This document shows, one piece after another, positions 13,284 through 64,000 of a stretch of 64,000 bases of DNA. The notes beneath the pieces were generated by a model, which searched no databases, had not been told where the DNA came from, and worked only from the letters and a program-made list of their open reading frames with translations. Where the stretch lies: NCBI GenBank assembly GCA_022496805.1, contig CM040091.1, forward strand, positions 24,108,336 to 24,172,335. The letters are read 5' to 3'. A program made the position numbers and the translations under genes. This DNA is from Pohlia nutans (Eukaryota; Streptophyta; Bryopsida; Bryales; Mniaceae). The stretch's first letter is position 1, and every line of letters starts with the position of its first letter.

Positions 13284-13490
13284 TGTTAACCGAATATTAG
13301 TTGATATGCCCTTAGGCTAAGAGTAGGCTAGTCTATACCCGGCAGGAATAGACTCGGCAGGCGACACGTGGCAGTACAGGCTGGTATAGACTGGTTGACC
13401 CGACTTTTCCGGTCGACCAGTCTGACACACAGTCAGACCAGTCTCCTATATGTACCTTCACACCCTTCGGGAGAGTTAATGTTATACCAT

Positions 13491-16109: not shown

Positions 16110-18950
16110 GGATGGGGTTGGTTCATATGGTATCAATGGCGCCGATGATCAACACCTGCCGCCAACGTTAGTCCCTCGGTACCGATGGTCTTCTGTAGCC
16201 ACATGCCTCTGATTATTGCGAGGGATGACCTGGTATGCGTGATGTCATGATGACGCGAGGGAGTCGTGGCGGAAAAAGACTCGGCATCGTGTAGGTCCTG
16301 GTCACGGTGTCTTTGCAGCACTCGCCACGGCGTCGTGATGACGCTCGCTCGGGCGTCGTGGTGCAAGAGGTCATGGTATCTTGGCGGTGCTCATCACGGC
16401 GTCATGGCGGTAGTCGTCACGGCGTCGTGGCAGTACTCGTCACGGCGTCGTGGCGGAAGTCGTCACGGCGTCGTGGCGGTAGTCGTCACGGCGTCGTGGC
16501 AGTACTCGTCACGGCGTCATGGCAGCACACGTCACGACGTCGTGATGGTGACCGTCGCGGCGTCTTGGTGGTGTTTGTCACGGCGTCGTGGTGGAACTCG
16601 TCACGGCGACGTGGTGGTGCTCGTCATGGTGTCGTGACGGTGCTCGTCACGGCGTCGCGATGGCGCAAGCCAGGGCGTCGTGATGGAACTGGTTATGGCA
16701 TCTTGGCGGTGCTCGTCACGGCGTCGTAGCAGTACTTGTCACGGCGTCAAGGCATGACGTGTCACGACGTCCTGATTGTCACTGTCACGGCGTCTTGGCG
16801 GTGCTCGTCATTGCGTCGTGGTGTAACTAGTCACGGCGGCGTGATGGCGACGTCGTGATGGCATCGTGGAGGGGACCGTTATGACATCGTGGTGGTGCTC
16901 AGTCTGTAGCTCCAGCGAGTTCCGACGGTAGCCCCTCGGTGCCGATTGTCTAAACTCGGAACAACCCCTTGATTAAGTCGAGTAGTGTGCTGCCATGGGG
17001 GAGCTTGTCAAGTATAGTATGGCCCTCGTGATCATGCTAGTATCGCGTGTTTAGGAATGCTCGACGCGCAATTCATGGCGTTGTGGTGGAACCCGTCATG
17101 GCATCGTGGCGGTGATTGTTACGGTGTCGTGGTAGTACTCGTAACGGCGTCATAGCAATGGCCGTCACCACGTTTAGGAGTTGCTCGTCTCAACTTCGTG
17201 GTTGTGCTCGAGTCCATAGCTCCAGTGATCAAATGCTTGAGCCGACGGTAGCCCCTCGGTGCCGATTGTCTAAACTCGCTACAGCCCCTTGATCAAGACG
17301 AGCGTTTTGATTTGTCTGAGGGAGCTCGTTATGGATGTTGAAAATTTGGCCAAGTGTTTGGCCAAGTAGGACTGTGGAATTCTGGCTAAGTGTTGAAGCC
17401 TTGGTTGTGGTGCTCGTCACGGCTTTGAGGTGGAACTCGTCGTCCTAACGTCAATGTTTTCAACACTGTGTCGTGACACTGCACGTCACGGCGTTGTTAG
17501 GGCGCGAACCAGGGCATCGTGGTGGAACTCGTCATGTTGTCGTGGTGGTGCTCGCAGCGGCGTCGTGGCAGTACGCGTCACGGCATTGTGGTGGGACCGT
17601 CACAGCGTCATGGTTAGGAACGGCACGTCGTCTTGGAGGTACTCGTCACGGCATGTTGGTGGTGCTCGTGCCCGTAGCTCCAGGGGTGTCAGCTCATGTC
17701 CATAGCTACAACAGTGTAAGCTTGTGTCCATAGCTCTAGCAGTGTAATCTCATGTCCAAAACTCCGGCAGAGTGAATGCGTGTCCAGAAGTGTAAGCTCG
17801 ATTCTAGCAGCTGTGTAAGCTTGTAATCGTGGTGCTACAGTGCTTATGACCATAGTGTAGTGGTGCTCGTCACGGCGTCCTAGAACTAATTTTTCCTTCG
17901 TGGTCGTCATCGAGATTTTAGCGCCCCTTGCGCTTGTACGTCAGCTTCGCTGATCTAGTGAATTTCATGCTTGTACTCTGGTGCTCAAAGTGATTTGGCC
18001 TGTGGTATGGTGCTCCCCATGCTGGTGGGAGTTTTATGGTGCTCGTCACGCTCATCATTCTGGCTCTTTTGGTACTCTTCACAATGCTCCAATCTCCATA
18101 TGGTGCTTTATGTGCTTGTGGAAATTCTGAAGATGTTTGATGGCGTAGAGGCCGTCATGGCCACGACCAAGACTGAACCCTTCGTTGTCCATATGCATTG
18201 GTTGTCTCGGGACCCTCGTGGTGCTCATCTTACACTCATACCGGTGCACGCAGCAGTGGAAGCTTCAGAAGTGTGAGTTCGAGTGCGCAGTAGTGTAAGC
18301 TCGTCCTCGCGTGTCCAGCAGCGTCAGTTCCTGCAGTGTAAGCTCGCGTTGTGGTGTTGTGCTGCTTGTGCCCTTGGTGCAGAGGTGCTTGTCATGGCGT
18401 CGTGGTTGTGCGCGTCACGGCATGGTGACGGCGTTGGTAATAAAGGACTTTTGGTGCACGTTTAGTGGTACTATTTTTGAATTGGTGGTTCTCGTGCCCG
18501 CTGGTCTTTGTGTGCTGGTCACGTGTTCTCGTGGTGTTCGTGAAGTTCACAAGGATAAGCCTGGTGCTCTTTGTGACCGATAGTTTTGGTGCTATGGTGC
18601 TCTTCGTGACCCCGTGTTATACTAGTGATAAAGTTCTTTGTGTATGCGCGGTGCTCATCCTTGTGAATTCGATACTGCCATCACGTTGATGTTTATTATA
18701 GTCAATGTAGCTGAGTTGCTAATCACGGTTCTCATCGTGCTCACCATTGTCTTATTTCAACTGTTTGGCTATCAATGATTGTGCTCGTCACGTTGGTATC
18801 AGTTGTATTGCTTGTATTGCCAGTTGTTTGTGTTCGTGACGGTGTTGATGGTGCACGTCACGGTTTTGTAAGTGCGTGGCGTGTTAGTGTTAGTGCTAGG
18901 GTTGGTGCTTGTGTAAGTGCTAGTTTTGTTGATTTTTGATGTTCTTAATT
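16110..18950. repeat. 23-bp minisatellite (CACGGCGTCGTGGCGGTGCTCGT type) and its decayed flanks
   Basis: Between about 16390 and 16800 the spacing of CACGGCGTC words is 23 bp (for example 16395, 16418, 16441). Outside this core the units decay. A longer unit containing CCCCTCGGTGCCGATTGTCT recurs near 16930 and 17240. Because 23 is not a multiple of three, the open frames across it are by-products. It is the right half of the locus split by gypsy A. Confidence 0.85.
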
Positions 18951-18985: not shown

Positions 18986-21900
18986 GATGATATCTCACAA
19001 ACTCCTGAGCAGTTGGTGGGTGAGGATAGCCCTGGTCCTCAACCCTCTTTAGGTGGTGGAGATGAAGACGCCACGGATCATGATGCTGAGGAGGTTGAAG
19101 ATGATGAAGCAGCGTTGGGGGCAAGCGAAGATGTTATACGGAGCCGCCAGAAGTGCTGTGGCTACAATTGCCAACCTCCGACTCCAACCGGTGCATATTT
19201 CCCGGCATCACATCCTATTGTGTAGAATGGTTGTGATGCCGATGGTGAGACCTACTCTCTCATGTGATTTGACAAAACTCGAGGAGGAGTTTGTGCATGG
19301 CTATAGAGATGGTGCAACTGTTTTCTATGTGTCTGTTACCAATGAACAAGGTGATATTCAAGAGGTCACTCAAGAGGACAAGGTGAATTGGGGGCCATTG
19401 TGGGATGAAGAGAATGAGAAATTCAACAAATACCTCCGTGGTATTCCAGGGATGCAACAGTATGTTAATCGGATGTTCTTCGTGTGTGATGGGAACCACC
19501 GTAGAATAGCTTGGATGAACCACATTGAGAGACTGCATGAGAATGAGCCCTCATGGCACTACTCGGTTGATGCTATCATTCTTGACACTAAAGGGCGGAT
19601 TGGTCTTGTCATGCAAGTTATGCATGACATCAATAATTGAGTATTTTCTCACACAACAATCACTTGGTTCATGTTCTCTATATATTGTAATATGATTTGT
19701 GTTTATATGATCATATGTCGCATTTTCTTACTTAATGCTTCATTAGAATCATATACTATTTAATTGTAATAATTTTCTCTTTTATCGTATTCAAACTCTC
19801 TTTCATTGTATTCATATTCTCTTTCATTGTATTGATTTAGACACACAGAGGATTCACAAGTGAAGACCAGTGTGGTTCACACGTTGTTCAGGGTTAAGAA
19901 GTATGGCGTAATGCCATTGGAGATGTTCAATGAACTCCTTACTCCCGTAGAGATATTGAAATGTCAAATGAACAATTCAAAGCGTTCATGGTACCATTTG
20001 ACTGTTGAGGTGTTCACGGCCTTCATATTTCGGGTACATGCTTTACTTTTGTTATCAATTTTATCTTTAACATTTTTACAAACGTGGATGAGTATGACTA
20101 ATACTGATTGTTTAGCAATTGTTTGTGCATGTTTAGCATGAGATTGCTGTTGCTGCTGATCTAGCTGCTCGACTTCATCGTGAACAAACACATCCTGATG
20201 ATATATCTGGTGGGAGTATTGCTGCCGCTATGCGTGCAGCAATTAAAGAGAAGACGGCCAAGATGAGCGTCAAGCTTGGGAAATTGGCTGCCGTTGCAAA
20301 CCCTGCAATTGTAGCTCCCATTCATAAGGTTAAATGGTTAAAACTGTTCAACTCATCTGTGGCAACCCGTGAAGCATCTCGTTTCCCTCCCAAACCCTTG
20401 AATGAAGAGAAGTTGGGAATGTTTCTTGTCAAGGCTTGTTGGTGGGCTGGGGTATGATATTCATACACCATTTAATCTACTTGAGTTGATGTGTTCTAAT
20501 TATCGCTCATGATTCATATTTGAGTTCTAGTTAAGTTTGCGATCAAATGTTTACAAGGTCACTAAATAATGTTCATGAATATACTTCACAAATTGCAGAT
20601 TGAAGAGAAGGCAATAGAGTACTTTGATGATATTGTTTGTGCTGATAACATTACCATCTCCATGGACTCTCCTCTTGAGTCTCTATCGTTGAGTGCTTTC
20701 ATAGAGGAGTGGCGGATTCAACCTATCAATCAACCATTGTTTTCACAAGCACATGACAGGCCCCTGCCACAGAACCCGTACAATCGACCGGTAGCTTCCC
20801 AGCCACTAGTCCTACCGACTGTCACCCAGTACTTACCCACCATACCTATGTGTGCATCTTGTGGTTGCTATGGTCACCTTCTCGAACAATGTGCACTATA
20901 CAACCCTCGGTCGATAGGCTATTCGGTACCTGCAGCCCAGATGCAGCAGTAGCCTTCCTACCCAGCAGCTACACTCCCGACTTGGACGACTCCTCAGAAA
21001 CCGGTAGCGATGCCCACCTACAAGGAAGGTAAGTGTGCCATTACGCATGTCCATCGATTTCTCAATGCCCTTACTTTGAATGGCGAACTGATTCGGCTAT
21101 TACTATAGCGTTATTTTCTACAATCAATGTAATTAATAATATGAGCTCTTGCAAGTAAATTCATTGATTACTATGTTTGTGTATAATTTGTTCCATTATG
21201 ATTTGAAATGTGTTCATGTATAATTCAATCAAAGTGTTTAAATCCTAAACTGTGCTTTTGAAACTACGATTGATGAGTGATATGTTTGTATTTCAATTGT
21301 TCAAGTTTTGTTTGGAATGTGTTCATACATATATCAATCAATGTATCTAAACTCTAAATTGTGCTTTTGAAACTAACTTGATTGATTGTATTCTTTGTCT
21401 TCTAGCACAAGAATGACCAGTCCCGGGCGCATAAAGGTGACTTGAATTCCAGGGGATTAGTGGACCTCATGATCGTGGATATGCCTGAGGGTCTGCCAGT
21501 CCCTGGCGTATCCAATCTTGCCTCCACCGTTCCCAATTGGAACCAGGAACCTCGAGAATTCTTGCAACCAGTTTTCGATTTTGCAGATCAACACCTGCAG
21601 GATGATGGTGCTCTTATTATTATTTACCCTTTCCGATCAGCTACAAAATCGAAGATCTTGGGTTACTGCAAGAGCTATGGATTCGAGGTGAAGAAGGACT
21701 GGTGGGGAATGAACCCACGAATGAACCGTCTTCACTTGACATCCCCTACCAATCCGTTGTTGACAGTGAGTTTGTTTATAAAGCTAATGTTGACATTGAT
21801 TTACTTTGAAGTACTTTATATATGTTTTCCTAAACTTATGTAAGTGTTTTTCTTTTGCAGACCAATCGCTTTGGCATTTGTTTGGCGATCAGGGTCAAGG

Positions 21901-22911
21901 GTACTTGGGAACCATCATCTTTTGCATTCCAGCCAGTCCCTGCGCTTCTTCGTAACGGAGTAGATGTTGCACGTGACGACATCCTCCAGAACTACATGGG
22001 TAAGGATGACCATTTGATGAACGGGGAGGTGCCATGGCGAGGACCGCGAGAGAAATCTACCTTGTTCATGCAGATGCTGATCGAGACATGTTCTTTCCCA
22101 CGCGACGTGGTGTTGGATTGCACTACCGCGACTGGTTAGTAATTCTATCTCATTCTAAATTATATGTTTGAATTTTTGTCATTGTACATTGATTACATCT
22201 GTTTACTATCTCTCATTTATTTTGTCTACGTTTGTCTACTATCTTTCAATTTTTGTCCTTGTAGTTTGTTTACATTTGTCTACTTTGTGATTGTTTTTCC
22301 AGGCGCCTCTATCCACGCTTGCCGCAATGTGGACCGCCACATCGCAGCGCTAGAGGAGGACAAGGCTATATTTGATGTGGTCCTTGCTCCTCTCATTCGA
22401 CCCGCTGTGACATGTATGCCTCGCCAATCGAGGGTTGTTATTGGCTTAGATGACATGGACGATGAGGACATTGTAGCGGAGCCGATTGTCAAGAAATCCC
22501 GATTCAGTAAGTAAGTCGGTTTATGTTGTTGTTTTGCATTATTATTTGTAGTTCTTTGCTCGTGATTTATTTTTCAGTATTTCTAATACTATGGTTTTTA
22601 TTGCTTGCAGATGCGGCGGACTAAGTGCTCCAATTCACCGACCTTTCTTCTCTAATCCCGAGTTTTTTCCTAGTCCTCCTAAACCCTTCACACTGCCCTC
22701 TTATGCAGAAGGAATTGCAAGACAGTTTGCAGAGCAGTGTATTTCTGATCGTAGTCCACGCCCCGTGTTTGTTTCTGCTCGTGTTTTAGAGTTTGTTGAT
22801 CAGGAGGCAGTTGAGTCTGATGGTGAGGCATCCGGTAGTGATTGTAGTGACATAGAGGGGTCTATGTCCGGATCTTCTAGTCCCACGGCTTCATTTGAGG
22901 CTTTGCCATAG
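18986..22911 (+). pseudogene. ParB-like / DNA-methyltransferase-like fusion gene, copy 1 (broken chimera)
   Basis: Exons by splice signals and comparison with copy 3: 18986-19636, 19841-20033, 20137-20451, 20599-20714, then a gag fragment, then 21406-21765, 21861-22134, 22303-22510 and 22611-22911. The first exon is acidic, then has a ParB-like region (LRLQPVHISR, MVVMPMVRP, GNHRRIAWMNHI at 19491). The last four exons form a methyltransferase-like fold in beta-class order: a DMPE motif (21478) in place of DPPY, DDGALIIIYPF, then VVLDCTTATG split by an intron and ALEED. Breaks: a frameshift near 19150, the donor GT changed to TT at 19637, fusion of two exons with loss of an intron near 20310, and replacement of sequence after 20714. 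Enzyme activity is doubtful because the catalytic motif is degenerate. Domain calls are inference from motifs. Confidence 0.7.
20715..21116 (+). mobile_element. Gypsy gag fragment embedded in ParB/methylase copy 1
   Basis: Joins the gene exon right after a conserved Trp-Arg pair and matches gag of fragment B at 28914-29315 (offset 8199). It includes a CCHC knuckle (CASCGCYGHLLEQC) and a TAG at about 20949 where gypsy A has CAG. The right edge runs straight into the gene-family intron. Confidence 0.9.
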
Positions 22912-23469: not shown

Positions 23470-23546
23470 ATTTGAAAAAGTCTGTGGGCTCTCAAGCTCA
23501 CAGGCTCCCGGGCTCCCGGGCTCACGCTCCCAGACTCACATGCTAG
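23470..23546 (+). repeat. GGCTC-rich tail ending in TGCTAG, copy 1
   Basis: Runs of GGCTC, AGCTC and GGGCTCCC follow an A/T-rich stretch and end at TGCTAG (23541-23546). Equivalent tails end at TGCTAG in copy 2 (31716-31721) and, on the minus strand, in copy 3 as CTAGCA (43987-43992). Sequences beyond these points are unrelated, so this may be the end of a mobile unit. Confidence 0.6.
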
Positions 23547-23556
23547 CACGTCCGCA

Positions 23557-27329: not shown

Positions 27330-29315
27330 TAGTAAGTTCTCCTTTATAGAAATCTCTTACTACTCCTCTCTATTTCTAGCGAATAGCTTAGCGTAGAGTA
27401 TTCTTGTGAGGAGTAGTCTCATTCGTTTAAGGCCGGTTCCTAGAAAACCCCCTTAACATTTGGCGACCATGCAAAGTTCAGCTCAGACACCAGTCTTTCT
27501 GTTGGGCTAGTCAGATTCAGATCTAGATCTAGATCCTGATCCAGATCCAGATCCTAGTCGACCGGGATCCAAATCTAGATCCTAGTCGATCCAGTCGACT
27601 ATCGCTAGGCTCTATACGTCCCAGGGAAATAGCAGTCATCTGCTTCCTACACGAAAATCATAAGTCTTAAAAAAAAATCTAGATCCCGAGTAGCCGGAAA
27701 GAGCCTCGGAGATCATTGTGTGTGACAGTCGACCAGGGTAGTCAATAGTCGATAATGCTACTGACCAAAAATCTGTAAGAGTAGTCTGTGAACAAGGCTT
27801 ACGGTGCCAAAGAGCAACCGACTAGGCCAGCACAAAAGACTAGCCAAACAAATCTCAGAGCCCGACCTACCTAGCAGAGTCAGTTCTAAATCCCAGATCC
27901 AGATCTAGATCCGATAACTGCCGCGTCGCTAGTATGGAACGACCGCGTACACGAGCTACCGGTTCTCCCTTACCAGTCAAAGTAACTGCCGACCAGCTCT
28001 CTAACCCACGTTTTCACAGAAAATGGCGAAATTTACAGTCGGAGACCGTTCCACCGACAGTAGTCCAGGAGACTACCACAGGAATAGATCCCCGACCAAC
28101 ATACGAGATTCGGCGGCAAGTCGCAGCATCGACCTCTACCGACCCGTCTTTACAACACTACATGGAGTTCACACAGGGAAGGATGAATACCCCAGAAGGT
28201 ACCATTTTTCACGAAACCTCGGTACCAATGGGATGAGGCATCCCAACTATACCAACCCGACCCCTGGCGATTCTACCGACCATGTATACCACGAATCATC
28301 AAACCCGCCCGACTGTGGCGTTCAAGACAAGGTCAAACCCGACTTCTCCACGAAGGGTCCGGGACGACCCGCTTGACTTAACGGAACGACCTTCCAGTGC
28401 GCATCAACGACTAGTAAGGTACGCTACCGAACCTCCCATCATTTTATATCAACGGCAGTTAGAAATAGATCAACTACGTCGTAATAGAGATGAATTAGAC
28501 TCCTAACTGGCCAGTCTTTTATCCAGCCAGAACCCGACATCTGAGCAACTACACTCGGAATCTCAACCAGGTCGACCGGACCAGTCGCTTACATTTCACC
28601 AGGAACCCAGTTCTCCTGGTCAAATGAATAGTCGACCCGGATCACCGAGTACCGACAACCCATACCCGATTGGCATAGACGGCTTGGATAATGATCTAGT
28701 CGATAGGATCAGACAGATCTATTAATCTAACTAACCAGTCCACCAGGTTGTTACTCGACCCAGTCTCCCGAATATCCGCACTCATATTCATGAGCCGAAT
28801 ATTCTATATATAGATCAGCCGAGGGTAGCCCACACTACAACCCCCAGACTGTCGACCCCTCGGACTAGTCTACCACCTGGTTACCAAACTCAACCAGCGA
28901 TAGGCATTCCTATGATTCAACCTATCAATCAACCATTGTTTTCACAAGCACATGACAGGCCCCTGCCACAGAACCCGTACAATCGACCGGTAGCTTCCCA
29001 GCCACTAGTCCTACCGACTGTCACCCAGTACTTACCCACCATACCTATGTGTGCATCTTGTGGTTGCTATGGTCACCTTCTCGAACAATGTGCACTATAC
29101 AACCCTCGGTCGATAGGCTATTCGGTACCTGCAGCCCAGATGCAGCAGTAGCCTTCCTACCCAGCAGCTACACTCCCGACTTGGACGACTCCTCAGAAAC
29201 CGGTAGCGATGCCCACCTACAAGGAAGGTAAGTGTGCCATTACGCATGTCCATCGATTTCTCAATGCCCTTACTTTGAATGGCGAACTGATTCGGCTATT
29301 ACTATAGCGTTATTT
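27330..29315 (+). mobile_element. Gypsy fragment B: end of 5' LTR, leader and gag, truncated
   Basis: The last part of an LTR (about 27330-27458, ending CCTTAACA) is followed by the same primer site and leader as element A and a gag that starts at 27934. A TGA at 28234 and a TAG at 29148 stand where element A has CGA and CAG. A one-base deletion near 29286 shifts the frame. The element stops abruptly at about 29315, where intron sequence of the ParB/methylase family begins. Rest of pol and 3' LTR are absent. Confidence 0.9.
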
Positions 29316-31721
29316 TCTACAATCAATGTAATTAATAATATGAGCTCTTGCAAGTAAATTCATTGATTACTATGTTTGTGTATAATTTGTTCCATTATGA
29401 TTTGAAATGTGTTCATGTATAATTCAATCAAAGTGTTTAAATCCTAAACTGTGCTTTTGAAACTACGATTGATGAGTGATATGTTTGTATTTCAATTGTT
29501 CAAGTTTTGTTTGGAATGTGTTCATACATATATCAATCAATGTATCTAAACTCTAAATTGTGCTTTTGAAACTAACTTGATTGATTGTATTCTTTGTCTT
29601 CTAGCACAAGAATGACCAGTCCCGGGCGCATAAAGGTGACTTGAATTCCAGGGGATTAGTGGACCTCATGATCGTGGATATGCCTGAGGGTCTGCCAGTC
29701 CCTGGCGTATCCAATCTTGCCTCCACCGTTCCCAATTGGAACCAGGAACCTCGAGAATTCTTGCAACCAGTTTTCGATTTTGCAGATCAACACCTGCAGG
29801 ATGATGGTGCTCTTATTATTATTTACCCTTTCCGATCAGCTACAAAATCGAAGATCTTGGGTTACTGCAAGAGCTATGGATTCGAGGTGAAGAAGGACTG
29901 GTGGGGAATGAACCCACGAATGAACCGTCTTCACTTGACATCCCCTACCAATCCGTTGTTGACAGTGAGTTTGTTTATAAAGCTAATGTTGACATTGATT
30001 TACTTTGAAGTACTTTATATATGTTTTCCTAAACTTATGTAAGTGTTTTTCTTTTGCAGACCAATCGCTTTGGCATTTGTTTGGCGATCAGGGTCAAGGG
30101 TACTTGGGAACCATCATCTTTTGCATTCCAGCCAGTCCCTGCGCTTCTTCGTAACGGAGTAGATGTTGCACGTGACGACATCCTCCAGAACTACATGGGT
30201 AAGGATGACCATTTGATGAACGGGGAGGTGCCATGGCGAGGACCGCGAGAGAAATCTACCTTGTTCATGCAGATGCTGATCGAGACATGTTCTTTCCCAC
30301 GCGACGTGGTGTTGGATTGCACTACCGCGACTGGTTAGTAATTCTATCTCATTCTAAATTATATGTTTGAATTTTTGTCATTGTACATTGATTACATCTG
30401 TTTACTATCTCTCATTTATTTTGTCTACGTTTGTCTACTATCTTTCAATTTTTGTCCTTGTAGTTTGTTTACATTTGTCTACTTTGTGATTGTTTTTCCA
30501 GGCGCCTCTATCCACGCTTGCCGCAATGTGGACCGCCACATCGCAGCGCTAGAGGAGGACAAGGCTATATTTGATGTGGTCCTTGCTCCTCTCATTCGAC
30601 CCGCTGTGACATGTATGCCTCGCCAATCGAGGGTTGTTATTGGCTTAGATGACATGGACGATGAGGACATTGTAGCGGAGCCGATTGTCAAGAAATCCCG
30701 ATTCAGTAAGTAAGTCGGTTTATGTTGTTGTTTTGCATTATTATTTGTAGTTCTTTGCTCGTGATTTATTTTTCAGTATTTCTAATACTATGGTTTTTAT
30801 TGCTTGCAGATGCGGCGGACTAAGTGCTCCAATTCACCGACCTTTCTTCTCTAATCCCGAGTTTTTTCCTAGTCCTCCTAAACCCTTCACACTGCCCTCT
30901 TATGCAGAAGGAATTGCAAGACAGTTTGCAGAGCAGTGTATTTCTGATCGTAGTCCACGCCCCGTGTTTGTTTCTGCTCGTGTTTTAGAGTTTGTTGATC
31001 AGGAGGCAGTTGAGTCTGATGGTGAGGCATCCGGTAGTGATTGTAGTGACATAGAGGGGTCTATGTCCGGATCTTCTAGTCCCACGGCTTCATTTGAGGC
31101 TTTGCCATAGCTCTACACTCTTGAGTATTGTGACTATTATGTGTTATTTGACACAGATGTTTTTATTGGATTGTAGTGAGACTGAAAGGGCCACTACCAC
31201 TTTATTTGCATTCGTTGTCTATCTTCATATTTGAATGGTTTCACTCTTATTCAACCACCCTAACTCAATTCTATGTGCTTTTATAAATTCTTGTACATTG
31301 GGTTTCTTGATAGTTACAAACATTGAGAATTGAAAATATAATCTAAAACTACTCATATTTTGGTCTTTAAACCCTAAACCCCTAAACACTAAACTCACAA
31401 ACATCAAATCAATTAAATGTCTTAAGATTTGAGAAATTCTAACACACTGAACTTCTATATAAAAGTGTTGACTCCACATTAGAATGTTACATGCATTTCC
31501 ATTATCACTACATTTCACACATTTATCAATTTTGCCTAACTAATTTTTTTGACATACAATTTGTCTAAAACCGCACACATGTTTTCTCTAAACCATTTAA
31601 ACCGATAGAAAATAATGCCTAAAACCCAAAGCCCACGGTCATAGGTCCACCAAAAAAAATTTGAAAAAAACTGAAAAATTTTGTGGGCTCTCAAGCTCAC
31701 GGTCCCCGGCTCACATGCTAG
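28914..31721 (+). repeat. Segmental duplication, right copy (partner 20715-23546)
   Basis: This copy continues leftwards into more gag, leader and LTR. It is therefore the more complete version, and 20715-23546 is probably derived from it. The right edge is the GGCTC tail ending in TGCTAG at 31716-31721. Confidence 0.9.
29316..31110 (+). pseudogene. ParB/methylase family copy 2, methyltransferase-like half only
   Basis: 5'-truncated. The exons that remain are 29605-29964, 30060-30333, 30502-30709 and 30810-31110, with GT/AG borders and matching phases (the third intron is phase 1, the fourth phase 2). They encode the DMPE motif (29677), DDGALIIIYPF, the WRGPREK segment, VVLDCTTATG and ALEED. 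The sequence equals copy 1 over this part. There is no ParB-like region and no start, since gypsy gag precedes the intron directly. The open frames of this half are intact, which fits a recent duplication rather than proof of function. Confidence 0.75.
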
Positions 31722-32741
31722 CACGCCCGCCGTACATGGATAAGTCACTCTCACTTATAAAATTCACAATAATTATGTGTGAGTCCGTTCTTAACATGAA
31801 AGATTGCAACAGAGAAGTGTTGACATATATCATTGCTGAACATCTTTACTTTCATTTTAGAAAATTTTACCTAAATTCTATTTAACTTTGAAGTCACACA
31901 CCCTCCAAAATCTCATTTTTGATTGTGCATTATACGGTTCAAAGACATACTATGATCTTCCAATGCCACCATTGGATGATTCTCTAATTTTGGCAAAAAT
32001 TTTGCACTCGAATTGAGAATAAATTTGAATGTACGATTACTTTCTAATTTAATAAATTATATTTCTGGCAGTATCAACTATAGTGGGAAAACCCAGTGAA
32101 AACCAATGAACCCGGCTATAGTACCCAAAGCGTTAAAGGGTTAAGAACTCCCTTCTCTACCGTTCTCTACAATCCAAAAAAGTTAATGTCCATTTTGGCA
32201 CTTCTGAAAAAAAAATACAAACACCTTAAAAGAAAGAAAATCACATAGGGGACTCATGAATGAATGCAAAAGAAAATTAAACCTTTGACGCACGTGTGCC
32301 CATATAATGAACGACATATAGATTGCAACCTTTCTCTCAACTACATCCTGTATAGTTTTTCATCCATCCAAAATTCTCTTGGTTCTAGTGCTAGTTGACT
32401 ATCATCTGTACGATACAAATCTTCAAAATAAGATATTATGATTTTTTTTAAAACAACATAATTGGTTTATGTAAAGTTTCATTCTGAGTTCAAAAAGTAA
32501 GACCTTTAAACATAATTTTCCAAAATAACTAGAATCAAACAACGGAAACCATACCATCTTGTACTGCATGTTATTCCAATTTCATTACAATATTTTTTTA
32601 ATTTTTTTGTGTTAATCTAGGATTTTTAATTGAATTTAAAGAGAAAACCTTGCAAAATTGATTGAAAAATATTAATAAAAAATATGATGAATCCAATTGT
32701 ACAAATGTGATCTTTACATTGACATTTACAACTTTGCTATG
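31722..32741. other. AT-rich spacer, nothing recognisable
   Basis: No gene or repeat I can name. Short open frames lack protein character. There is a CTATAGT inverted pair around 32070-32120 that might mark a small MITE, but I cannot define its ends. Confidence 0.5.
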
Positions 32742-32743
32742 TA

Positions 32744-33299
32744 CAGTAGGGTCCAAGGCAGAATGGCGTTTTTGGTATCCCAGTGGAAAAAAATTCAAGT
32801 GTGCCCACTTTGAAAGCCTCTAGAGAGATCAAAAATTGGTATTTTACCTTGAATTGTTTACCATGAACCTGAAATCAAGTTGTTAGTATGCCTACCAAAT
32901 TTCAAAGCCAAATAATTCACCAAAAACAAGTTATTCAAAATCTACCAATATAGGTAGCTGTGGAAAGAGTTTCACTCCTACCAACTTCGACACCCTCCTA
33001 AGAATTGAAAAAAAAATTCCTTACTTTGATGTTTTTTGGTAGAAACCAATTTGTGTTAATAATATATGGTAAAAATCTCAAGTCTAAAAAAATAGTTAAA
33101 AAGAAGATATTCCCAATCTACCAACATGTGTTATTTTGCGGTATGCTTGTGGAAATCATTTTCACTGCACAACCAACTTTGACACCCTCCCAATGGCTAA
33201 AAAATGGCCCATTTGCCATGAAATTCTTGTCACAAGATAAGCTACATGTTAATGACAAGTGTGCCAAAATTCAAGCTCAAAAAGCTTACATAAAAAATC
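32744..33299 (+). repeat. Left terminal inverted repeat of the Tc1-like element
   Basis: Matches the complement of 34716-35272 over its whole length with few differences. The frames at 33005-33382 (+) and 34662-34991 (-) are mirror images of each other in the two repeats and are not genes. Confidence 0.92.
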
Positions 33300-34715: not shown

Positions 34716-35272
34716 TATTTTTTTTGTGTAAGCTTTTTGAGCTTGAATTTTGGCACACTTGTCATTAACATGTAGCTTATCTTGTGACAAGAATTTCATG
34801 GCAAATGGGCCATTTTTTAGCCATTGGGAGGGTGTCAAAGTTGGTTGTACAGTGAAAATGATTTCCACAAGCATACCGCAAAATAACACATGTTGGTAGA
34901 TTGGGAATATCTTCTTTTTAACTATTTTTTTAGACTTGAGATTTTTACCATACATTATTAACACAAATTGGTTTCTACCAAAAAACATCAAAGTAAGGAA
35001 TTTTTTTTCAATTCTTAGGAGGGTGTCGAAGTTGGTAGGAGTGAAACTCTTTCCACAGCTACCTATATTGGTAGATTTTGAATAACTTTTTTTTGGTGAA
35101 TTATTTGGCTTTGAAATTTGGTAGGCATACTAACAACTTGATTTCAGGTTCATGGTAAACAATTCAAGGTAAAATACCAATTTTTGATCTCTCTAGAGGC
35201 TTTCAAAGTGGGCACACTTGAATTTTTTTCCACTGGGATACCAAAAACGCCATTCTGCCTTGGACCCTACTG
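34716..35272 (-). repeat. Right terminal inverted repeat of the Tc1-like element
   Basis: Partner of 32744-33299. The transposase stop codon (34704-34706) lies just inside its inner edge. Confidence 0.92.
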
Positions 35273-35274
35273 TA

Positions 35275-35451
35275 CATCGGCTTCATTTTTGTTATTCATC
35301 AAACATTTTATAACGAATCTTTTAAAAAAAACATAGTGAAAAAGAACAAAATAGTAAGAAATTCCTCGAGATCCAAGCCAAAAAAAAAGTTTTCTATTTC
35401 AAACATTGTAATCATTTTTGGTGAAATTTTCTAAAACTAATATAAATATAA

Positions 35452-43980: not shown

Positions 43981-43986
43981 CGGGAA

Positions 43987-44597
43987 TGCTAGGACGTGAG
44001 CCTAGAGAGAAGAGCCTGAGCCTCTGAGAGCCTGAGAGCCTAGAAAATTTTCAATTTTTTTTCGTTTTTTTCTGTAAGGGACCTATAACCGTGGATTCAG
44101 TATGTGTTGAATTTGGGTTTAGGTTAAACTTCAAATTAGACTTTTGCTTACATGTATGCAAATAGTTTATGAAAAACTTAGGGTTTAGGTATCAAGGGTG
44201 TATCGTTCGAACATTGAAAAATTATACATGAACAAGAGAGTATACAAATCAATGAGGTTTAGGGTTTAGGATTTTAGCAACGTGAAGTACAACACGGATG
44301 GCATTTAATTGGAGTGGTTTAGAGCTTAAATGTGAAATCGGTATAATTCACATACTAAAACTATGCAAATTAATAATGAAAATTTGAGGGTCTAAGGGTT
44401 TAGGGTGTAGAGAGGATACATTCAAAATTGCAACATGAACAAAGGAGTGAACAAATCAATGAGGTAAGAGAATAGAATGGTTTAGCAATGTGAAGTACAA
44501 CACATTTGTAAAAATCCAAAGTAGTGGCCCTTTTAGTCTCACTACAAATATAAAATAGAAAGTAGTACAAATATGTGGAGAGAGCATGAAGTTGCTC
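43987..44597 (-). other. 3' flank and GGCTC tail of ParB/methylase copy 3
   Basis: On the minus strand, downstream of the stop codon, AT-rich sequence with TTTAGGG-like words leads to a GGCTC/CTCAGG-rich tail (44042-43993) ending in CTAGCA at 43987-43992. The order matches the flank and tail of copies 1 and 2 although the sequence is diverged. Confidence 0.6.
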
Positions 44598-47500
44598 TCA
44601 ATCATCACTAGAATTACCGGTAGCAGTAGATCTTGAGCAAGAGCTAGATGTAGAGCGGCTCGGTGAACTAATACCATCACAATCAGACTCCTCAGCCTCA
44701 ACATCAAAGTATACAAGTGCGTCAGAATTCAACACCTTTGGCTTTGGAATGTGATCCCTAATACCATGTCCTGCAAGAGCCTGTGCAACAGGCTCAATGT
44801 AGCACGGCAATTGAAAAGGTTTAGATGGACTCTCAAGAAACTCTGGCCTTGCAAAAAACGGCCTCTACACGGTAGAATACATGCTCTTCATTTTTCTGCA
44901 CAAACAAAAATCAACATGAGAACAATGTGATCAACATTTCATCAAACAAAGTATCAATTATAATTTTTGAATTCAAACTTACTTACTGAATCGAGATTTC
45001 TTCAACACTCGAACGACCGCTGATGGAACTGCGTCTGGGTCCTCTGATGCAGATGATGATGCAACGACTGCAGCGGGTTCGGATTTAGGGGCACGTCGCA
45101 TAGACAAGAGCAATCCATCAAATAGCTCTTGGTCCTCCTCGAGTGCCACAATGTGGCGTTGCACGCGGCGGCATGCCAACAACGACGCACCTAAAACCCG
45201 GCATAGATAAAAAAACACGTATAACAATTAGCACGAGTAAGTGAAAGAGAAATTAAAACAAATAGAAAGAAAAAAATAATAATACAAGAAATAAAACCCA
45301 AGTAATACTAAGAAAGAATGTTAGAAATATAAACCTGTCATAGCGGTGCAATCTAAGACAACATCGCTGGGGCGAGAAGAAGCCGCGATCAACATCTGTA
45401 TGAACTGACTATCCTTCTCACGAGGACCTCGCCAAGGCTGATTTCCATTCATTTTTTGTGAACTCTTGGTGGTGAAATTCTGTAACATGTCATCACAACC
45501 CACATCTAATCCAAGAGCCTCAAGCGCAAGAATAGATCGAAATGCAAACCGTGCGGGAGCACCCTCGGGCAACACACGAACCAAGAGGTAAATACCAAAA
45601 CGCTGAGTCTGCAACATATAGAATTAAAAGAGTTTGCTAATAGTAATAGCAAAACAATAACGAATTTTGAAAAACTAGGTAGTGTAGGAGAATTTACCGT
45701 CTTGAGATGGTTTACTGGTGATGCCAAATGGAGCCTATTCATGCAAGTCCAATCCTTGTACAATGTAAAACCCGTTGCATTACCGTAACCAAGTATGTTA
45801 GCCTTGGTTGACTGCTTATATGGATGCACAATGATGATAGCGCCATCATCAACCAAGTAATTGTCTGCAAAATCAAAAATTGGATCAAGCCAATCGTCCT
45901 CAGCTGCATTCCATGGTGGAATCTGTCCCGGCGGATCCGAGATGGTGGGAACGGGTAGGTTCTCGGGCATGTCCACAAGAATTAAATCTACACATGGATC
46001 TTTGCACGACTGTCCTTTGAATACTCGTGGGCGGTCCGCTTTGTGATACAAAACAAAAAACATACACATGCTAATAAATTAAAACTGCCACACAAGCTTC
46101 AACAAAATAAATTGAAGTATAAAGAGTCGAAGAAGTATGTCAAACAGCATACCTCATCCAAAAACCTCTGAATCTCCTCAAACATCTTTGAAACAGGGTC
46201 ATCTTCATTCTGTGGAAGAGCAGCTGCAAGGGATGTGTTGAGTACCAACTCATCGATGTCCTGGTCCTCTCCTAAGTCCACTACATCACGAATTTGGCCA
46301 CAAAAGGCCTTGTCTTGTGATAGCTCCAAGTATCCAGAATCTCTCTTAGTACCCCGCTGTTCCTGGTTCTTGTGCTGAGATTCTGCATCAACAACACTAG
46401 AAGAAGAAGGCTTTGGGACTTCTTGTACCTTTGGATTCTTCTTCTTATCTTCTTTCTTGGCAATTTTCTCTGCTTGCTTCTCAATCTTGGCTTGCTCCCG
46501 GGCGGCTACCTTCTCTTCATGTTGAGTAATCTTCAACGCCTTCTTCTTGTCTTCAGCTTCAACCTTGGCAATGAGTTTAAGCCGCGCCTCCTCATCAAGC
46601 TTCTCCAAATCACCAACCTACCTTTTCTTGAAGGCTTCAACCCCCTTGAAAACGTTAACAAATGCCTTGTCCCAAAGCTTCACTCGCCAAGACTCTATGA
46701 ATTGGGAAAGTGTCCTGGGCTCTGCTGGGACATCCATGTTCAAAGGAACATTGTCTTTGTGGACAATTGTTTCAAACAATTCCACAGCGCAATCCTCAAT
46801 CTACAAACAATTAAGTGATGAGTTTTAAACAATAGAATTACATAGTATGAAAGTAGAAAAAAAAATTTGATAGAAAAACTTACCCCAGCCCACCAGGCGG
46901 CCCTCACAATAAAGGAATTGAGGCGTTCATCGTTAACTGGCCTCAAAGGAAATCGAACTGCCTCTCGTGTATGCACCGAGGAGTTCCACCACTTTAGCCA
47001 TCGGAGCTTGTGGTGAGGAGGAACAACAGATGTAGCAATCAGCTGAAGCTTGTCGAGAGTTAGCTCCAATTGCGAGGCATTCAAACTCCAATGCCTCTCA
47101 ATCTGATAACAAAGTGAAATTCAAGCCGTGAGCAACAGAAATACATGTAAATTTAAGACAAAATGAATGTAATAAATTGTATTATACCTCTTGCAGAAAC
47201 TCGGGTCCATGCGCTGGATTCGCCACAGGTGTCATCTTCCCTAACTTGACAATCAGTTTTGAAGTCCTATCCTTGATGCCCATCTTCATTGCAGCCGCAA
47301 TGCCTTCCCGAGTAACATCTTCTGGTTTAGTCTCCTCACGATAAACAAGCACAGCTAAGTCACCAGCAGCAGCAATGTCTTGCTGAAACAAGGCCCCAAA
47401 TACAAGGATATTAGGAGTATAAATTTTAATACTAAAATTCACACATTCACGTGAATGAAAAATGCCATAGAGGAGTGAAAGCAGAAAGATTACCCTAAAC

Positions 47501-48446
47501 ATGAGACAAGTAAAAATGTCCTGTTGTAAATTTGTCCATCCTCTCTTAACTGAATTGCGACATCTTTCCAATTCCTGGGGGCTCAAAAGCTCTGTGAAAT
47601 GACTCAGCGGCATTGTCCCAAACTTTCGAACCTGATAGAGCTGATGAACTAGGTTTGTTTTCACGTGGGAAAACTCTGTTTGCCTAAAGGACATGGACCA
47701 CATCATTCAGAATTAGGAAAAGTACATAATGAACAAAAAATCAAAATGTAATGAACAATAAAATTTGAAAGAAAGTATTTCCGTAGGAAACTTTATACTC
47801 ACTTGTTTATGTCATTCATGACGTTCATGAGAACACCAAGTCGACCTTTGGTCTCCAAAATGATAGTGTCCACGGAGTAATGCCATGACTGAACGTCATT
47901 GTAGAGCCTCGTAATATGGTTCATCCATGCAATACGACGATGGTTACCATTACAGATGAAGAACATCTTACCCTTTATAAATCGTAAAGCATCTTGAGAA
48001 TCGAGATATTGATCAAACTTCTCACTCTCAGAGTGCCAAATTGGTCCCCAATCACTGCAGTCCTTGGATGTCACGTGATCCCCTTCATCTTGCTCGTTCG
48101 TTAAAGACTTATAAAAAACACAAGCACCTTCACGATAGCCATAGACAAATTCCTGCTCAAGCTTGACAAGGTCACTCTGCAGAGTGGGCCTTACCATAGG
48201 CATGACAACAAGCCTACACAAAGGAATGTTATGGCGAGAAATATTAAGCGGCTGCAAACGTAGGGCTGCGAGCGCTGCAACGGTGTTGATCTTCTGTGAT
48301 CGCCGAATGCCATCCTCACTGAAACTATCCACAGAGGCAATGATAGGAGAGTCATCGTCCTCATCCTCATCCTCAACTCCAATCGCGGGTTGAGGAGACT
48401 CAACGTTCTCATTTGCACTGTCTGTGTCATACTGCACCTGAGGAAC
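44598..48446 (-). pseudogene. ParB-like / DNA-methyltransferase-like fusion gene, copy 3 (most complete)
   Basis: Minus-strand exons: 48446-47803, 47683-47494, 47382-47188, 47102-46884, 46800-46153, 46045-45698, 45608-45335, 45190-44983 and 44896-44598. Domain order: acidic start; ParB-like region (LRLQPLNISR, LVVMPMVRP, GNHRRIAWMNHI); helical middle; Lys-rich coiled coil (EAEDKKKALK, about 46530-46400); methyltransferase-like fold with DMPE (45962-45973), DDGAIIIVHPY, WRGPREKD, VVLDCTAMTG, ALEED; Ser-rich acidic end. The motif order is that of beta-class N4-cytosine/N6-adenine methyltransferases, but the catalytic DPPY-type motif is DMPE. Breaks: in-frame TAG at 46618-46620 and 44865-44867, and the acceptor of exon 6 reads TAT instead of TAG (46046-46047). 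The first exon or exons are missing, cut off by the gypsy LTR at 48524. Confidence 0.72.
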
Positions 48447-48523
48447 CTGTATAAGAGGAATTGAGAACAATATACATTATGAGTTTAAATCTAGAAGGAA
48501 CTGTATGACACAGACAAGATTGA
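48447..48523 (-). other. Intron remnant upstream of copy 3
   Basis: Ends in the acceptor CAG next to 48446. The gypsy C LTR begins at 48524, so the upstream part of the gene is gone or lies beyond the inserted sequence. Confidence 0.6.
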
Positions 48524-48971
48524 TGTTAAGGGGGTTTTCTAAGAACCGACCTTAAACGAATGAAGCTACTCCGCCCAAGAGTATCCCACTCTAGACTAGT
48601 TTCTAGAGATTGAGAGGAGTAGTAAGAGGTTTCTGCTAAGAAGAATGGACTGTCGGCTAAGGAAAAGCACCAGTATGCTAGTAAGTCGACTCCTGCATAC
48701 CCACAGACTACTGCAACTAACCAAGATACAACCACAAGGAATGATTCAAGAGCAGAAAACAGCAGTTGTCTAACAGCAGTAGTCTAATATACTAGTGCGC
48801 ACAAGAAGAGCTTAAGACATGAACGAAGTACAACTGAGGCTGCCAAAAAGATGTACAAATGGTATAGCAACAACTCTCCCGAAGAGAGTGAAGGTATGTC
48901 AAGCCTCGTTTATTCAGAAAACGGACAGTTAGGGTTTGCAGGGCAGTAAAAGGTAACCCCAGCTGCCATAA

Positions 48972-58800: not shown

Positions 58801-60205
58801 CGTTGTCTTCTTCTTGGCCGGGCTTCTCACCCCCGGAATAGGCACTTCCTCCAACCTCCTCTTCTCTTCTGCCGTGAGGCACCCATGTTTCTCGTACAAG
58901 TGGTAGAGAAATGGGGCTAATGGGCATCCCTTCTTGTTGTCGAGGTTACCCGCCCACTTCTGCTTGTTCCAGTGGATCAGGATTGCCCAGTTGATCCGTT
59001 TCTTCCGGAGAAGGGCGGAGTAGATACCTCGGGCCAACGTCACAGTGAGGGTGGTGGGCTTCTCCGGATTGAGGATGGGCACCACATACTGGAGCAGCCG
59101 TTGCTCCCGGGGTATAATGCAGTCCGCCACCTTGAATCCGTCCTTGTCCGGGAGATGACTGAACCGCATCTTCACCTAGTCCGTGTCGCCCTTGCCTCCC
59201 GGTTCCAGGTCCTCGTTGGTGTCCGGGAAGTCGTACAGTTCCCGCCACATCTCCCGGGTCCAACTGCCATACTTCGCCCGGATGGTTGTCCGGAAAGCGT
59301 TCACCATGGACCCGCCCTCGATTTCCTCCAGCATCCGGGAGTCCTGCACATCCCACACTCTCCTAAACAATCCCAAGCACCCCATTTTCTGGAGGTCTTG
59401 CATTAGCTCGTCGAAGTCTTGTTCTTGTTGCGGGATGTCCGGGCAGATACGTTTCTCCGGAATCTTGGCCCCGGCTCCCCTGCATACCATGGCTGCGGAC
59501 TCTGGGCGGACTTCTTCACTCCTCCGGATGTGACGCAGCTCGTTCTCCAGATGCGCCCTCTCTTTCCTCGGTAAACCTCGCGCCTCTCGCTCCGGGCGCT
59601 TCCCTTTCCGCTTCCGGGGTGTTCTTCTAACCTCCCGGAGACCCCGCGACCCTTTTCTTGGCTGCGAACTTCCTTTCTTCCTCAAATTTCGCCGGAAATG
59701 GCGGTGCGCACTGTCCGGAGGCGCGCCTATTTCAAATTCTAACCTTGCGTCGCTGTCTCTCACCGGGTGTTCAGTTTCCCTCACTCCCGGACGCTCAGAA
59801 TCTGCAAAATACGGTCGCTCAATGCTCTCTTCTTCCGGTCCCACACTATCAATTCTACTGCTATCCGGAAGCTCGAAATTCTGCTGGCGCGGACAACTGG
59901 AGCTGTAAAGAGTGAATGAACAGTGGGTCGCTCAGTTTAGAGCGGCCCACTTCAATGCTCCGACCGTGACCGGGTCCATCAGAGACCCGTCCACACCCCT
60001 CCGGTCTCCCATCCGGTATCCCACCGGAACCTGCTGTAAATCTAGTCCTGAAATAATTCCTCTAGGCTGCGCCCGGATTTTACTCTCTCTCCAAATAAAT
60101 AATTGGGCCATTATGGCCACTACTCCTCCTATTTACGGCGGGAAGACTACTCCTAGTTGCCCTAGAAACCCTAAGTAGCGGCTTTCGGTAAAACGAGGTT
60201 TGACA
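55875..60205 (-). mobile_element. Family-D element E, 4331 bp, minus orientation
   Basis: On the + strand it starts TGTCGTAGCACGTG and ends AAACGAGGTTTGACA, the same two termini as element D. The left flank is gypsy F, with AGGTT directly before the start. The right flank is satellite (CCTCG), so the expected duplication is missing. Either the right side was rearranged or the satellite array moved in later. Confidence 0.85.
57082..60120 (-). pseudogene. Family-D ORF in element E, several stops
   Basis: One frame of about 1013 codons with stops at 59929 (TGA), 59176 (TAG), 58171 (TAG), 57961 (TAA) and 57748 (TAA). The first two stand where element D has Trp (ALNWAAH, DSDWVKA), which fits G to A changes. 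The same layout as in D: variable N-terminus, globular region (MLEEIEGGSM, WTREMWRELYDFPDT), charged linker, coiled coil (about 57800-57350) and a tail ending SPEDEE. The retained similarity over 1000 codons indicates that the family once had a protein-coding role. Confidence 0.8.
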
Positions 60206-63200
60206 CCTCGTAAGTCATCCTCGTGGACGAGGACCTATCCATGGTCCTCCATTTCAAAGAATACCAAACTGGTTGTTCAAAATTTAAAAAAAATTTAGCA
60301 CAACTGAGGGGCTCGTGACTGGGTGAGAGAGCCACCCCACACTTACTGTGAGTACCTTTGAAGTCATCCTCGTGGACGAGAACCTATCCATGGTCCTCCA
60401 TTTCAAAGAATACTATACTCGATGTTCAAAATTTAAAAAAAATTAGCACAACTGAGGGGCTCGTGACAGGGTGAGAGAGCCACCCCACACTCACTGTGAC
60501 TACCTTGAAAGTCATCCTCGTGGCCGAGGACCTATCTATGGTCCTCCATTTCAAAGAATTCCATACTCGATGTTCAAAATTTTAAAAATATTTAGCACAA
60601 CTGAGAAGCTCGTGACAGGGTGAGCGAGCCACCCCACCCTCACTGTGAGCACCTCCAAAGTCATCCTTGTGAACGAGGACCTATCCATGGTCCTCCATTT
60701 CAAAGAATACCAAACTCGATGTTCACATTTTTTTTTAAAATAGCACAACTGAGGGGCTCGTGACAGGGTGAGAGAGCCACCCCACACTCACTCTGAGCAC
60801 CTCGAAAGTCATCCTCGTGAACGAGAACCTATCTATGGTCCTCCATTTCAAAAATACCAAATTGGATGTTCAAAATTTTAAAAGAATTTAGGACAACTAA
60901 GGGGTTCGTGACAGGGTGAGAGAGCCACCCCACACTCACTGTGAGTACCTCGAAAATCATCCTCATGGACGAGGACCTATCCATAGTCCTCCATTTCAAA
61001 GAATACCATACTCGATGTTCAAAATTTAAAAAAAATTAGCACAACTGAGGGGCTCGTGACACGGTGAGAGAGCCACCCGACACTCACTGTGAGCACCTCG
61101 AAAGTCATCCTCGTGGACGAGGACCTATCCATGGTCCTCCATTTCAAAGAATACCATACTCGATGTTCAAAATTTAAAAAAAAGTTAGCACAACTGAGGG
61201 GCTCGTGACTGGGTGAGAGAGCCAGCCCACACTCACTTTGAGTACCTTGAACATCATCCTCGTGGACGAGGACCTATCCATGGTCCTCCATTTCAAAGAA
61301 TACCAAACTGGATGTTCAAAATTTAAAAAAAAGTTAGCACAACTGAGGGGCTCGTGACTGGGTGAGAGAGCCAGCCCACACTCACTTTGAGTACCTTGAA
61401 CATCATCCTCGTGGACGAGGACCTATCCATGGTCCTCCATTTCAAAGAATACCAAACTGGATGTTCAAAATTTAAAATTTTTTTAGCACAACTGAGAGGC
61501 TCGTGACATGGTGAGCGAGCCACCCCACACTTACTGTGAGTACCTTTGAAGCCATCCTCCTGAACGAGGACCTATCCATGGTCCTCCATTTCAAAGAATA
61601 CCAAACTGGATGTTCAAAATTTTAAAAGAATTTAGCACAACAAAGAGGCTCGTGACGGGGTGAGAGAGCCACCCCACACTCACTATGAGTACCTCGAAAG
61701 TCATACTCGTGGACGAGGATCTATCCATGGTCCTCCATCTCAAAGAATACCAAATTGGATGTTCAAAATTTAAAAAAATTTAGCACAACTAAGGGGCTCG
61801 TGACAGAGTGAGAGAGCCACCCCCACACTCCCTGTGAGTACCTTGAAAGTCATCCTCGTGGACGAGGACCTATCCATCGTCCTCCATTTCAAAGAATACC
61901 AAACAGGATGTTCAAAAATTTAAAAGAATTTAGCACAACTAAGGGGCTCGTGACGGGGTGATTGAGCCACCCCACTCTCACTATGAGTACCTCGAAAGTC
62001 ATACTCGTGGACGAGGACCTATCCATTGTCCTCCATTTCAAAGAATACCATACTCGATGTTCAAAATTTAAAATAAATTAGCACAACTGAGGGGCTCGTG
62101 ACAAGGTGAGAGAGCCACCCCACACTCACTGTGAGCACCTCGAAAGTCATCCTCGTGAACGAGGACCTATCCATGGTCCTCCATTTCAAAAATACCAAAC
62201 AGGATGTTCAAAATTTTAAAAGAATTTAGCACAACTAAGGGGTTCGTGACGGGTTCAGATAGCCACCCCACACTCACTGTGAGTACCTCGGAAGTCATCC
62301 TCGTGGACGAGGACCTATCTAGGGTCCTCCATTTAAAAATAAACAAAACTCGATGTTCAAAATTTAAAAAAAAATTAGCACAACTAAGGGGCCCGTGAGT
62401 AGGTGAGAGAGCCACTCCACACTCACTTTGAATACCTCGAAAGTCATCCTCGTGATCAAGGACCTATCCATGGTCCTCCATTTCAAAAATACCAAACTGG
62501 ATGTTCAAAATTTTAAAAGAATTTAGCACAACTAAGGGGCTCGTGACGGGGTGAGAGAGCCACCCCACACTCACTGTGAGTACCTTGAAAGTCATACTCG
62601 TGGACGAAGACCTATCCAATGTGCTCTATTTCAAAGAATACCAAATTGGATGTTCAAAATTTAATAAAATTTAGCACACCTAAGGGGCTCGTGACAGGGT
62701 GAGAGAGCCACCCCACACTCACTGTGAGTACCTTGAAAGTCATCCTAGTGGACGAGGACCTATCCATGGTCCTTCAATTCAAACAATACCAAACTGGATG
62801 TTCAAAATTTTAAAAAACATTTGCACAACTGAGGGGCTCGGGACACGGTGAACGAGCCACCCCACACTTACAGTGAGTACCTATGAAGTCATCATTGTGG
62901 ACGAGGACCTAACCATGGTCCTCCATTTCAAAGAATACCATACTCGATGTTCAAAATTTTAAAAGAATTTAGCACAACTAAGGGGTTCGTGACAGGGTGA
63001 GAGAGCCACCCTACACTCACTGTGAGTACCTCGAAAGTCATCCTCGTGGACGAGGACCTATCCATGGTCCTCCATTTCAAAGAATACCAAACTGGATGTT
63101 CAAAATTTTAAAAAAATTTAGCACAACTGAGGAGCTCGTGACATGGTAAGCGAGCCACCCCACACTTACTGTGAGTACCTTTGAAGTCATCCTCGTGGAC

Positions 63201-64000
63201 GAGAACCTATCCATGGTCCTCCATTTCAAAGAATACTATGCTCGATGTTCAAAATTTAAAAAAAATTAGCACAACTGAGGGGCTCGTGACAGGGTGAGAG
63301 AGCCACCCCACACTCACTGTGACTACCTTGAAAGTCATCCTCGTGGCCGAGGACCTATCTATGGTCCTCCATTTCAAAGAATTCCATACTCGATGTTCAA
63401 AATTTAAAAAACATTTAGCACAACTCAGGGGCTCGTGACACGGTGAGCGAGCCACCCCACACTCAATGTGAGTACCTTTGAAGTCATGCTCGTGGACGAG
63501 GACCTATCCATGGTCCTCTATTTCAAAGAATACCAAACTGGATGTTCAAAATTTTAAAAAAAATTAGCACAACTGAGGGGCTCGTGACAGGGTGCGAGAG
63601 CCACCCCACACTCACTGTGAGCACCTCGAAAGTCATCCTCGTGATCGAGGACCTATCCATTATCCTCCATTTCAAAGAATACCTAACTGGATGTTCAAAA
63701 TTGAAAAAAAAATTAGCACAACTGAGGGGCTCGTGACAGGGTGAAAGAGCCACCCCACACTCACTGTGAGTACGTCGAAAGTCAAACTCGTGGATGAAGA
63801 ACTATTTATGGTCTTCCATTTCAAAGAATACCAAACTGGATGTTGAAACTTTAAAAAAACTTAGCACAACTGTGGGGCTCGTGACAAGGTGAGCGAGCCA
63901 CAACACAGTCACTTTGAGTACCTTTGAAGTCATCGTCGTGGACGAGAACCTATCCATGGTCCTCCATTTCAAAGAATACTATACTCGATGTTCAAAATTT
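60206..64000. repeat. Satellite array, 148-149 bp unit, about 25 copies, continues beyond the window
   Basis: GTCATCC words recur at 60214, 60363, 60511, 60660 and 60808, a spacing of 148-149 bp. Each unit carries TCCTCG-TGGA-CGAGGA followed by a second inverted pair, GAGGACC and GGTCCTC, an A/T-rich TTCAAAATTTAAAA tract, and GAGGGGCTCGTGACAGGGTG. Units differ by point changes and small gaps. Open frames on both strands repeat from unit to unit and are not genes. Confidence 0.95.

Follow-up and report, generated by a model that had tools for sequence, protein, structure and literature searches.

A gene for a ParB/sulfiredoxin-fold and methyltransferase-type protein carried by a Mutator-superfamily transposon in the moss Pohlia nutans

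The stretch of DNA analysed here (64,000 nucleotides, hereafter the window) comes from the moss Pohlia nutans (contig CM040091.1 of assembly GCA_022496805.1, positions 24,108,336 to 24,172,335, forward strand). On its minus strand, from 48446 to 44598, lies a spliced gene with ten recognisable exons, most of which have GT/AG borders. It is almost certainly the accessory (second) gene of a transposon, and codes for a protein that combines a ParB/sulfiredoxin (Srx)-fold domain with a CcrM-like methyltransferase-type domain. The analysis is computational and covers fold, sequence relation, transposon ends, transposase fold, dispersed copies and selection. An earlier, sequence-only reading had described an intron-bearing eukaryotic gene family with these two domains, and the exon structure agrees with it on the introns; prokaryotic ParB-methyltransferase fusions usually lack introns. 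The exons are as follows.

47803..48446, minus strand: exon e1, ParB/Srx-fold domain, with GNHR as the GxxR of Box II
47494..47683, minus strand: exon e2, recognised by its GT/AG borders and kept in relatives
47188..47382, minus strand: exon e3, recognised on the same basis as e2
46884..47102, minus strand: exon e4, likewise recognised by borders and relatives
46624..46800, minus strand: exon e5, its 3' part gone in the deletion at 46621-46624
46153..46621, minus strand: remnant of exon e6, a lysine/glutamate-rich linker containing the junction stop at 46618-46620
45698..46045, minus strand: exon e7, methyltransferase-type domain with DMPE as motif IV, lacking the AG acceptor found in a relative
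45335..45608, minus strand: exon e8, with WRGPREK (motif X-like) and VVLDCTAMTG (motif I-like)
44987..45190, minus strand: exon e9, motif II-like ALEED and the C-terminal tail
44598..44895 (start approximate), minus strand: last exon, with an apparent in-frame stop where copy C23_1.38 has CAG

What is probably the accessory gene's first exon, recognised by its conserved frame, is found at another locus (L009:6600-6976); it carries a basic KRRKKRGR run that, from its sequence, might act as a nuclear signal.

A structure model of the e1 product and its comparison with known folds give the ParB/sulfiredoxin fold for the domain as a whole. Box II of this fold is present as GNHR (positions 167-170) at the start of a helix spanning 168-181. 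The strings VVMPMVRP and GNHRRIAWMNHI, quoted in the sequence-only reading, lie in this exon, and the predicted fold bears out its ParB-like assignment. In the ParB exon consensus (A1), the last helix carries HDINK, which may correspond to Box III (ENxxR in ParB). Box III is frequently missing from non-canonical ParBs (PMC12704722). The ParB exon has 49 relatives. Searches of Pfam, PHROGs and PDB sequences gave no ParB match, the nearest being DndB (1/46 members at 0.094), so the ParB assignment is one of fold alone. Pattern scans with A1 in bacterial and archaeal genomes, and with A1 and A3 in viral contigs, confirmed no relative.

The 3' half of the gene matches beta-class DNA methyltransferases (CcrM, E 1.8e-5, over profile positions 18-231) and, together with this sequence relation, displays the permuted motif order IV ... 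X ... I ... II of the beta-class N4-cytosine/N6-adenine (N4C/N6A) enzymes, as had been recognised earlier. DMPE and DDGAIIIVHPY are indeed encoded at about 46045-45698, VVLDCTAMTG at 45608-45335 and ALEED at 45190-44987, all on the minus strand. The Pfam profile PF01555 is matched by three of five members; its match to the window copy has an E-value of 8e-6 but scores 26.4 bits against a cut-off of 26.7. Four relatives of the linker-plus-methyltransferase half were found, two of which (P0003 and P0004) span methyltransferase sequence and two the linker only. In place of the catalytic (S/D/N)PP(Y/F/W), all five aligned members have D(M/I)PE. The form DMPE, said earlier to occur in all copies, is present in 9/9 genome copies with readable e7-e9 (window included; 11 copies examined), in a second copy in the window (copy 1) and in P0003, with DIPE in P0004. 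The forms of motif IV given for bacterial and eukaryotic enzymes in the available text of PMC8885841 are SPPY, DPPY, NPPY, DPPY/F and DPPW. At the place of motif I (FxGxG), the window copy has DCTAMTG and P0004 has DVNAGVG. With motif IV altered in this way, an ordinary amino-methyltransferase role is less likely. Of the DNA-binding or regulatory role suggested in the sequence-only reading, the non-catalytic part is plausible from this derived motif, and binding itself we infer.

The gene is dispersed in the genome. A search with exon e1 (697.8 Mb, 332 contigs) gave 278 candidate places, of which 40, the window's own included, were scored; all are 84-100% identical. Ten further copies were fetched and, with that of the window, 11 were compared. 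Homology among them extends past the gene and then ends sharply. Of the 11 copies (window included), eight extend to the gene-side end; in all eight it reads ...CATTCCCG, and the flanks beyond it differ from copy to copy. The opposite end begins with CAACGACGCTACC in all five copies for which it was read. Together the ends form an imperfect inverted repeat of ~36 bp, and 9 of these 13 ends contain GAGCCTAGAGAGGAGAGCC exactly. Both ends were read in four copies; one of these is flanked by a perfect 10-bp target duplication, and the flanks of each of the other three do not match each other. When 40 end pairs were compared across copies, a perfect 9-bp word in one copy's left flank recurred in the right flank of a second copy, and another pair of flanks agreed at 8/9 positions. 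The duplications of 9-10 bp fall within the 8-11 bp of the Mutator superfamily. On contig C7, target duplications are split among different copies (L030, L031, L011, L018 and L020), possibly by exchange between copies of one chromosome or by inversion.

The transposase is encoded on the strand opposite to that of the accessory gene, and the two genes are divergent. The closest matches to the model of a transposase relative are ISCth4, a Mutator-like transposase, and a GCM DNA-binding domain, which makes it a DDE transposase of the IS256/Mutator-like element (MULE) type. A CxC...CxH pattern is visible by eye in L009:1016-2086. Pfam MULE and SWIM profiles gave no match to the transposase, and Transposase_mut matched weakly in 2/42 (0.034). 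The carrier is a Mutator-superfamily DNA transposon of about 14 kb or more that is present in many copies, and its transposase is, as modelled, a GCM-type DNA-binding domain joined to an IS256/MULE-type RNase H core. The window contains the following parts of such elements.

43981..48523, minus strand: transposon remnant with its gene-side end, terminating in ...CATTCCCG at 43981; homology to the fetched copies begins and ends here
43981..44016, minus strand: terminal inverted repeat of the gene side, ~36 bp, imperfect; other copies have the same end and different flanks
about 19053..22821, plus strand: copy 1, 52% identical in the ParB exon and of an older subfamily
29614..31020, plus strand: copy 2, partial: copy 1's methyltransferase half, duplicated
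16352..16843, plus strand: array of 23-bp tandem units ahead of copy 1, containing 5 CTCGTCACG sites

The copy at 44598-48446 is a broken remnant. It is truncated at 48523 by a long terminal repeat (LTR)-like repeat (48523-48896), and lacks, at 46621-46624, ~410 bp that are present in 8/9 other copies reaching there. The stop at 46618-46620 results from this deletion; a nonsense mutation at 46618 was considered and rejected, since the stop is the deletion junction. The AG that precedes e7 in C23_1.38 is also absent. Copy 1 has lost the e1 donor and contains a retroelement fragment (20715-21116), and none of 120 transposase relatives matches the window at E 1e-3, so no transposase was found by copy 1. 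Half of copy 1 lies in a 2.8-kb stretch (20715-23515) that is duplicated at 28914-31712 with 99.7% identity; near this duplication, 3352-5308 and 27347-29315 are 94% alike. Other repeats surround these copies. The LTR-like repeat at 48523 is the same as that bounding a probable LTR retroelement at 3121-16104 (direct repeats 3121-3463 and 15762-16104, 97% alike). A 559-bp inverted repeat (32739-33297 and 34720-35277, 99.1% identity) resembles the ends of another mobile element, open frames at 23417-24545 resemble a hAT-type transposase by eye, and 26488-27326 is a tandem array of 6.6 copies of a 127-bp unit.

Selection was estimated on concatenated exons, excluding e6 because a gap there breaks the frame of the reference copy. 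For the accessory gene, the ratio of nonsynonymous to synonymous substitution rates (dN/dS) is 0.17-0.21 when subfamily A is compared with B (three pairs), with single exons ranging from 0.15 (e7) to 0.41 (e9). Within A it is 0.39-0.97 (21 pairs), and it is 0.51 in one B pair; the transposase gives 0.17-0.42 (four pairs). The accessory gene was therefore under selection while the subfamilies parted, and less or not at all during the latest spread.

In most copies read, tandem arrays lie between the probable first coding exon and e1, and their unit varies by subfamily: 160 bp in A, repeated 1.8 to 41.7 times, and 85, 309 or 394 bp in two B copies. Loci fetched later have units of 116, 74 and 24 bp, and C22_8.5, among the ten fetched copies, has short degenerate arrays. 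The three discovery units have seven 6-mers in common (0.83 expected, P 0.0004), two 7-mers (0.075 expected, P 0.0104) and a single 9-mer in which one base is free, CGTNACGAG (P 0.033; it reads CTCGTNACG on the opposite strand). No exact 8-mer is common to the three unit consensuses; the full discovery arrays share six 8-mers and no 9-mer. The form with the free centre arose from the discovery units, before the held-out loci were examined, and recurs in the unit of two of three held-out array types (shuffle P 0.0057 and 0.0013); CGTSACG, the form first examined, has zero occurrences in the C10_19.3 arrays. Two more loci, of types already represented, have 17 and 31 CTCGTNACG sites in 4 kb, against ~0.1 expected. 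Outside the arrays, the motif has two sites in the 2,390 bp ahead of the array; the gene sides tested in A and B (4,900 bp each) and the tested transposase side (6,079 bp) have none. In the window, 11 of 15 sites fall within 16436-18784. Three more (61649, 61947 and 62540) lie in a 149-bp tandem array of 25.5 copies that reaches the window end (60205-64000) and could belong to another element. As a recurrent array motif identified from sequence, CTCGTNACG is a lead.

A function for such a protein is suggested by VANC, which, in the available text of the reports on it, binds motifs in fast-changing non-coding tandem repeats, introns included, and removes silencing (PMC5735166; PMC10398659). A ParB-type clamp on the arrays would fit a VANC-like job. 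By analogy, the protein may be a self-targeting, probably non-catalytic anti-silencing factor. It would recognise the DNA of its own element, most likely the arrays before the ParB exon where CTCGTNACG recurs, bind nucleotide, and spread or cluster there as ParB does; once bound, it would protect the element from host silencing, much as VANC protects VANDAL. The methyltransferase-type part may bind DNA or S-adenosylmethionine (SAM), or block host enzymes, and is less likely to methylate. An accessory gene with VANC-like anti-silencing is, by a small margin over even, our best full explanation, and the VANC-like mechanism, taken as such from the analogy, falls slightly short of an even chance. 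A more specific version is rather doubtful: a VANC-like system built independently from prokaryotic parts, in which a ParB-type nucleotide-driven clamp would load at CTCGTNACG in intronic arrays and spread along its own Mutator-type transposon, and a methyltransferase-derived domain, marked by the conserved D(M/I)PE, would be a non-writing sensor of DNA or of its methyl state.

Three other explanations are considered. The protein might bind the element that encodes it and act as a writer of N4-methylcytosine or N6-methyladenine, an activity proposed for algal proteins of the same kind. Its architecture and strand match those described for the Sola1-1_Ec32 transposon in the available text of PMC12477816, its methyltransferase domain is conserved (as the value for e7 shows), and P0004 retains a GxG-like motif I, VDVNAGVG; yet every member read has D(M/I)PE and not the S/D/NPPY or DPPW of the enzymes listed in PMC8885841, as far as that list was available, and motif I of the window copy is DCTAMTG, so that we consider a writer unlikely. 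Equally improbable is a mudrB-like co-factor that works with the transposase on ends or integration and not on silencing. Second genes of MULEs can be required for integration (mudrB; available text of PMC6446971), and the divergent placement of the accessory gene suits such a role, but CTCGTNACG lies in internal arrays and is missing from the transposase and gene sides measured above. A host gene family, which the sequence-only reading derived from a fusion in bacteria or phages, would account for the introns and the conserved coding frame. It is very improbable and, for the copies read, was rejected: they have precise ends, inverted repeats and target duplications in common, and close copies decay under little constraint. 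The three copies in the window are broken or partial.

Several observations weigh against the anti-silencing explanation. D and P of motif IV are retained, and a changed activity of the methyltransferase-type domain is, from its sequence, possible. In the same two A pairs, dN/dS is 0.46 and 0.42 for the accessory gene and 0.17 and 0.20 for the transposase, and, in eight exons projected on the reference copy, 9/11 copies (window included) have in-frame stops; two copies are stop-free there, among them that of the window, which is broken otherwise. This weaker constraint and the stops mean that the accessory gene may be dispensable for recent movement. As to the arrays, one of the ten fetched copies (C3_16.6) has none in 10 kb upstream, and CTCGTNACG is absent from the held-out type C18_21.6 and from the second array of C10_19.3. 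The motif was picked after inspection of the arrays, and some array units have other sequence in common (the pairs B-C11 and C10-C11), so that not all are independent. Better conservation of CTCGTNACG than of the rest of the array is unsupported: compared with the median 9-mer in 11 arrays, it is above in seven (in one of these only some sites are), equal in one and below in three. With C or G as the free base, it includes TGACG, a host bZIP site.

Transposon-borne ParB-methyltransferase proteins are known. PMC12477816 reports them from algal transposons (brown, green and red), and Sola1-1_Ec32 of Ectocarpus carries one as an accessory protein. By description, the moss protein is likewise a two-domain protein encoded opposite a transposase; the carrier is Sola1 there, and an element with a GCM and IS256/MULE-type transposase here. 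D(M/I)PE and the arrays before the ParB exon are features of the moss element, the algal proteins being likened to it by description only. Phage fusions of ParB and N6_N4 methyltransferase (PMC12704722) contain the same two domain types and are prokaryotic. The N4CMT of bdelloid rotifers, as presented in the available text of PMC8885841, is likewise a permuted beta-type amino-methyltransferase with introns in a eukaryote; unlike the moss gene, it is a host gene with SPPY and a chromodomain, and silences transposons. DNMT-carrying retrotransposons and the Dam-like methylases of DIRS elements, in the text available from PMC5890265, are further cases of a transposon-borne DNA methyltransferase, although their carriers are retrotransposons and the enzymes belong to other methyltransferase classes. 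Among the literature matches listed, there was no ParB-methyltransferase on a Mutator-type carrier, and neither a GCM carrier nor D(M/I)PE nor the arrays were found. The second gene mudrB of the autonomous MULE MuDR is comparable by position only. VANC of VANDAL, an Arabidopsis MULE, is also a second gene in the MULE superfamily that is associated with fast-changing non-coding arrays, introns included; it is described, in the available text, without ParB or methyltransferase domains, and its likeness to the moss protein is one of analogy. The moss transposon thus presents a ParB-methyltransferase in a different superfamily, in many copies, with measurable selection and with arrays like the targets of VANC. 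Since the element offers a concrete candidate target DNA and its protein an altered active site that is conserved, what such proteins do for transposons can be tested directly.
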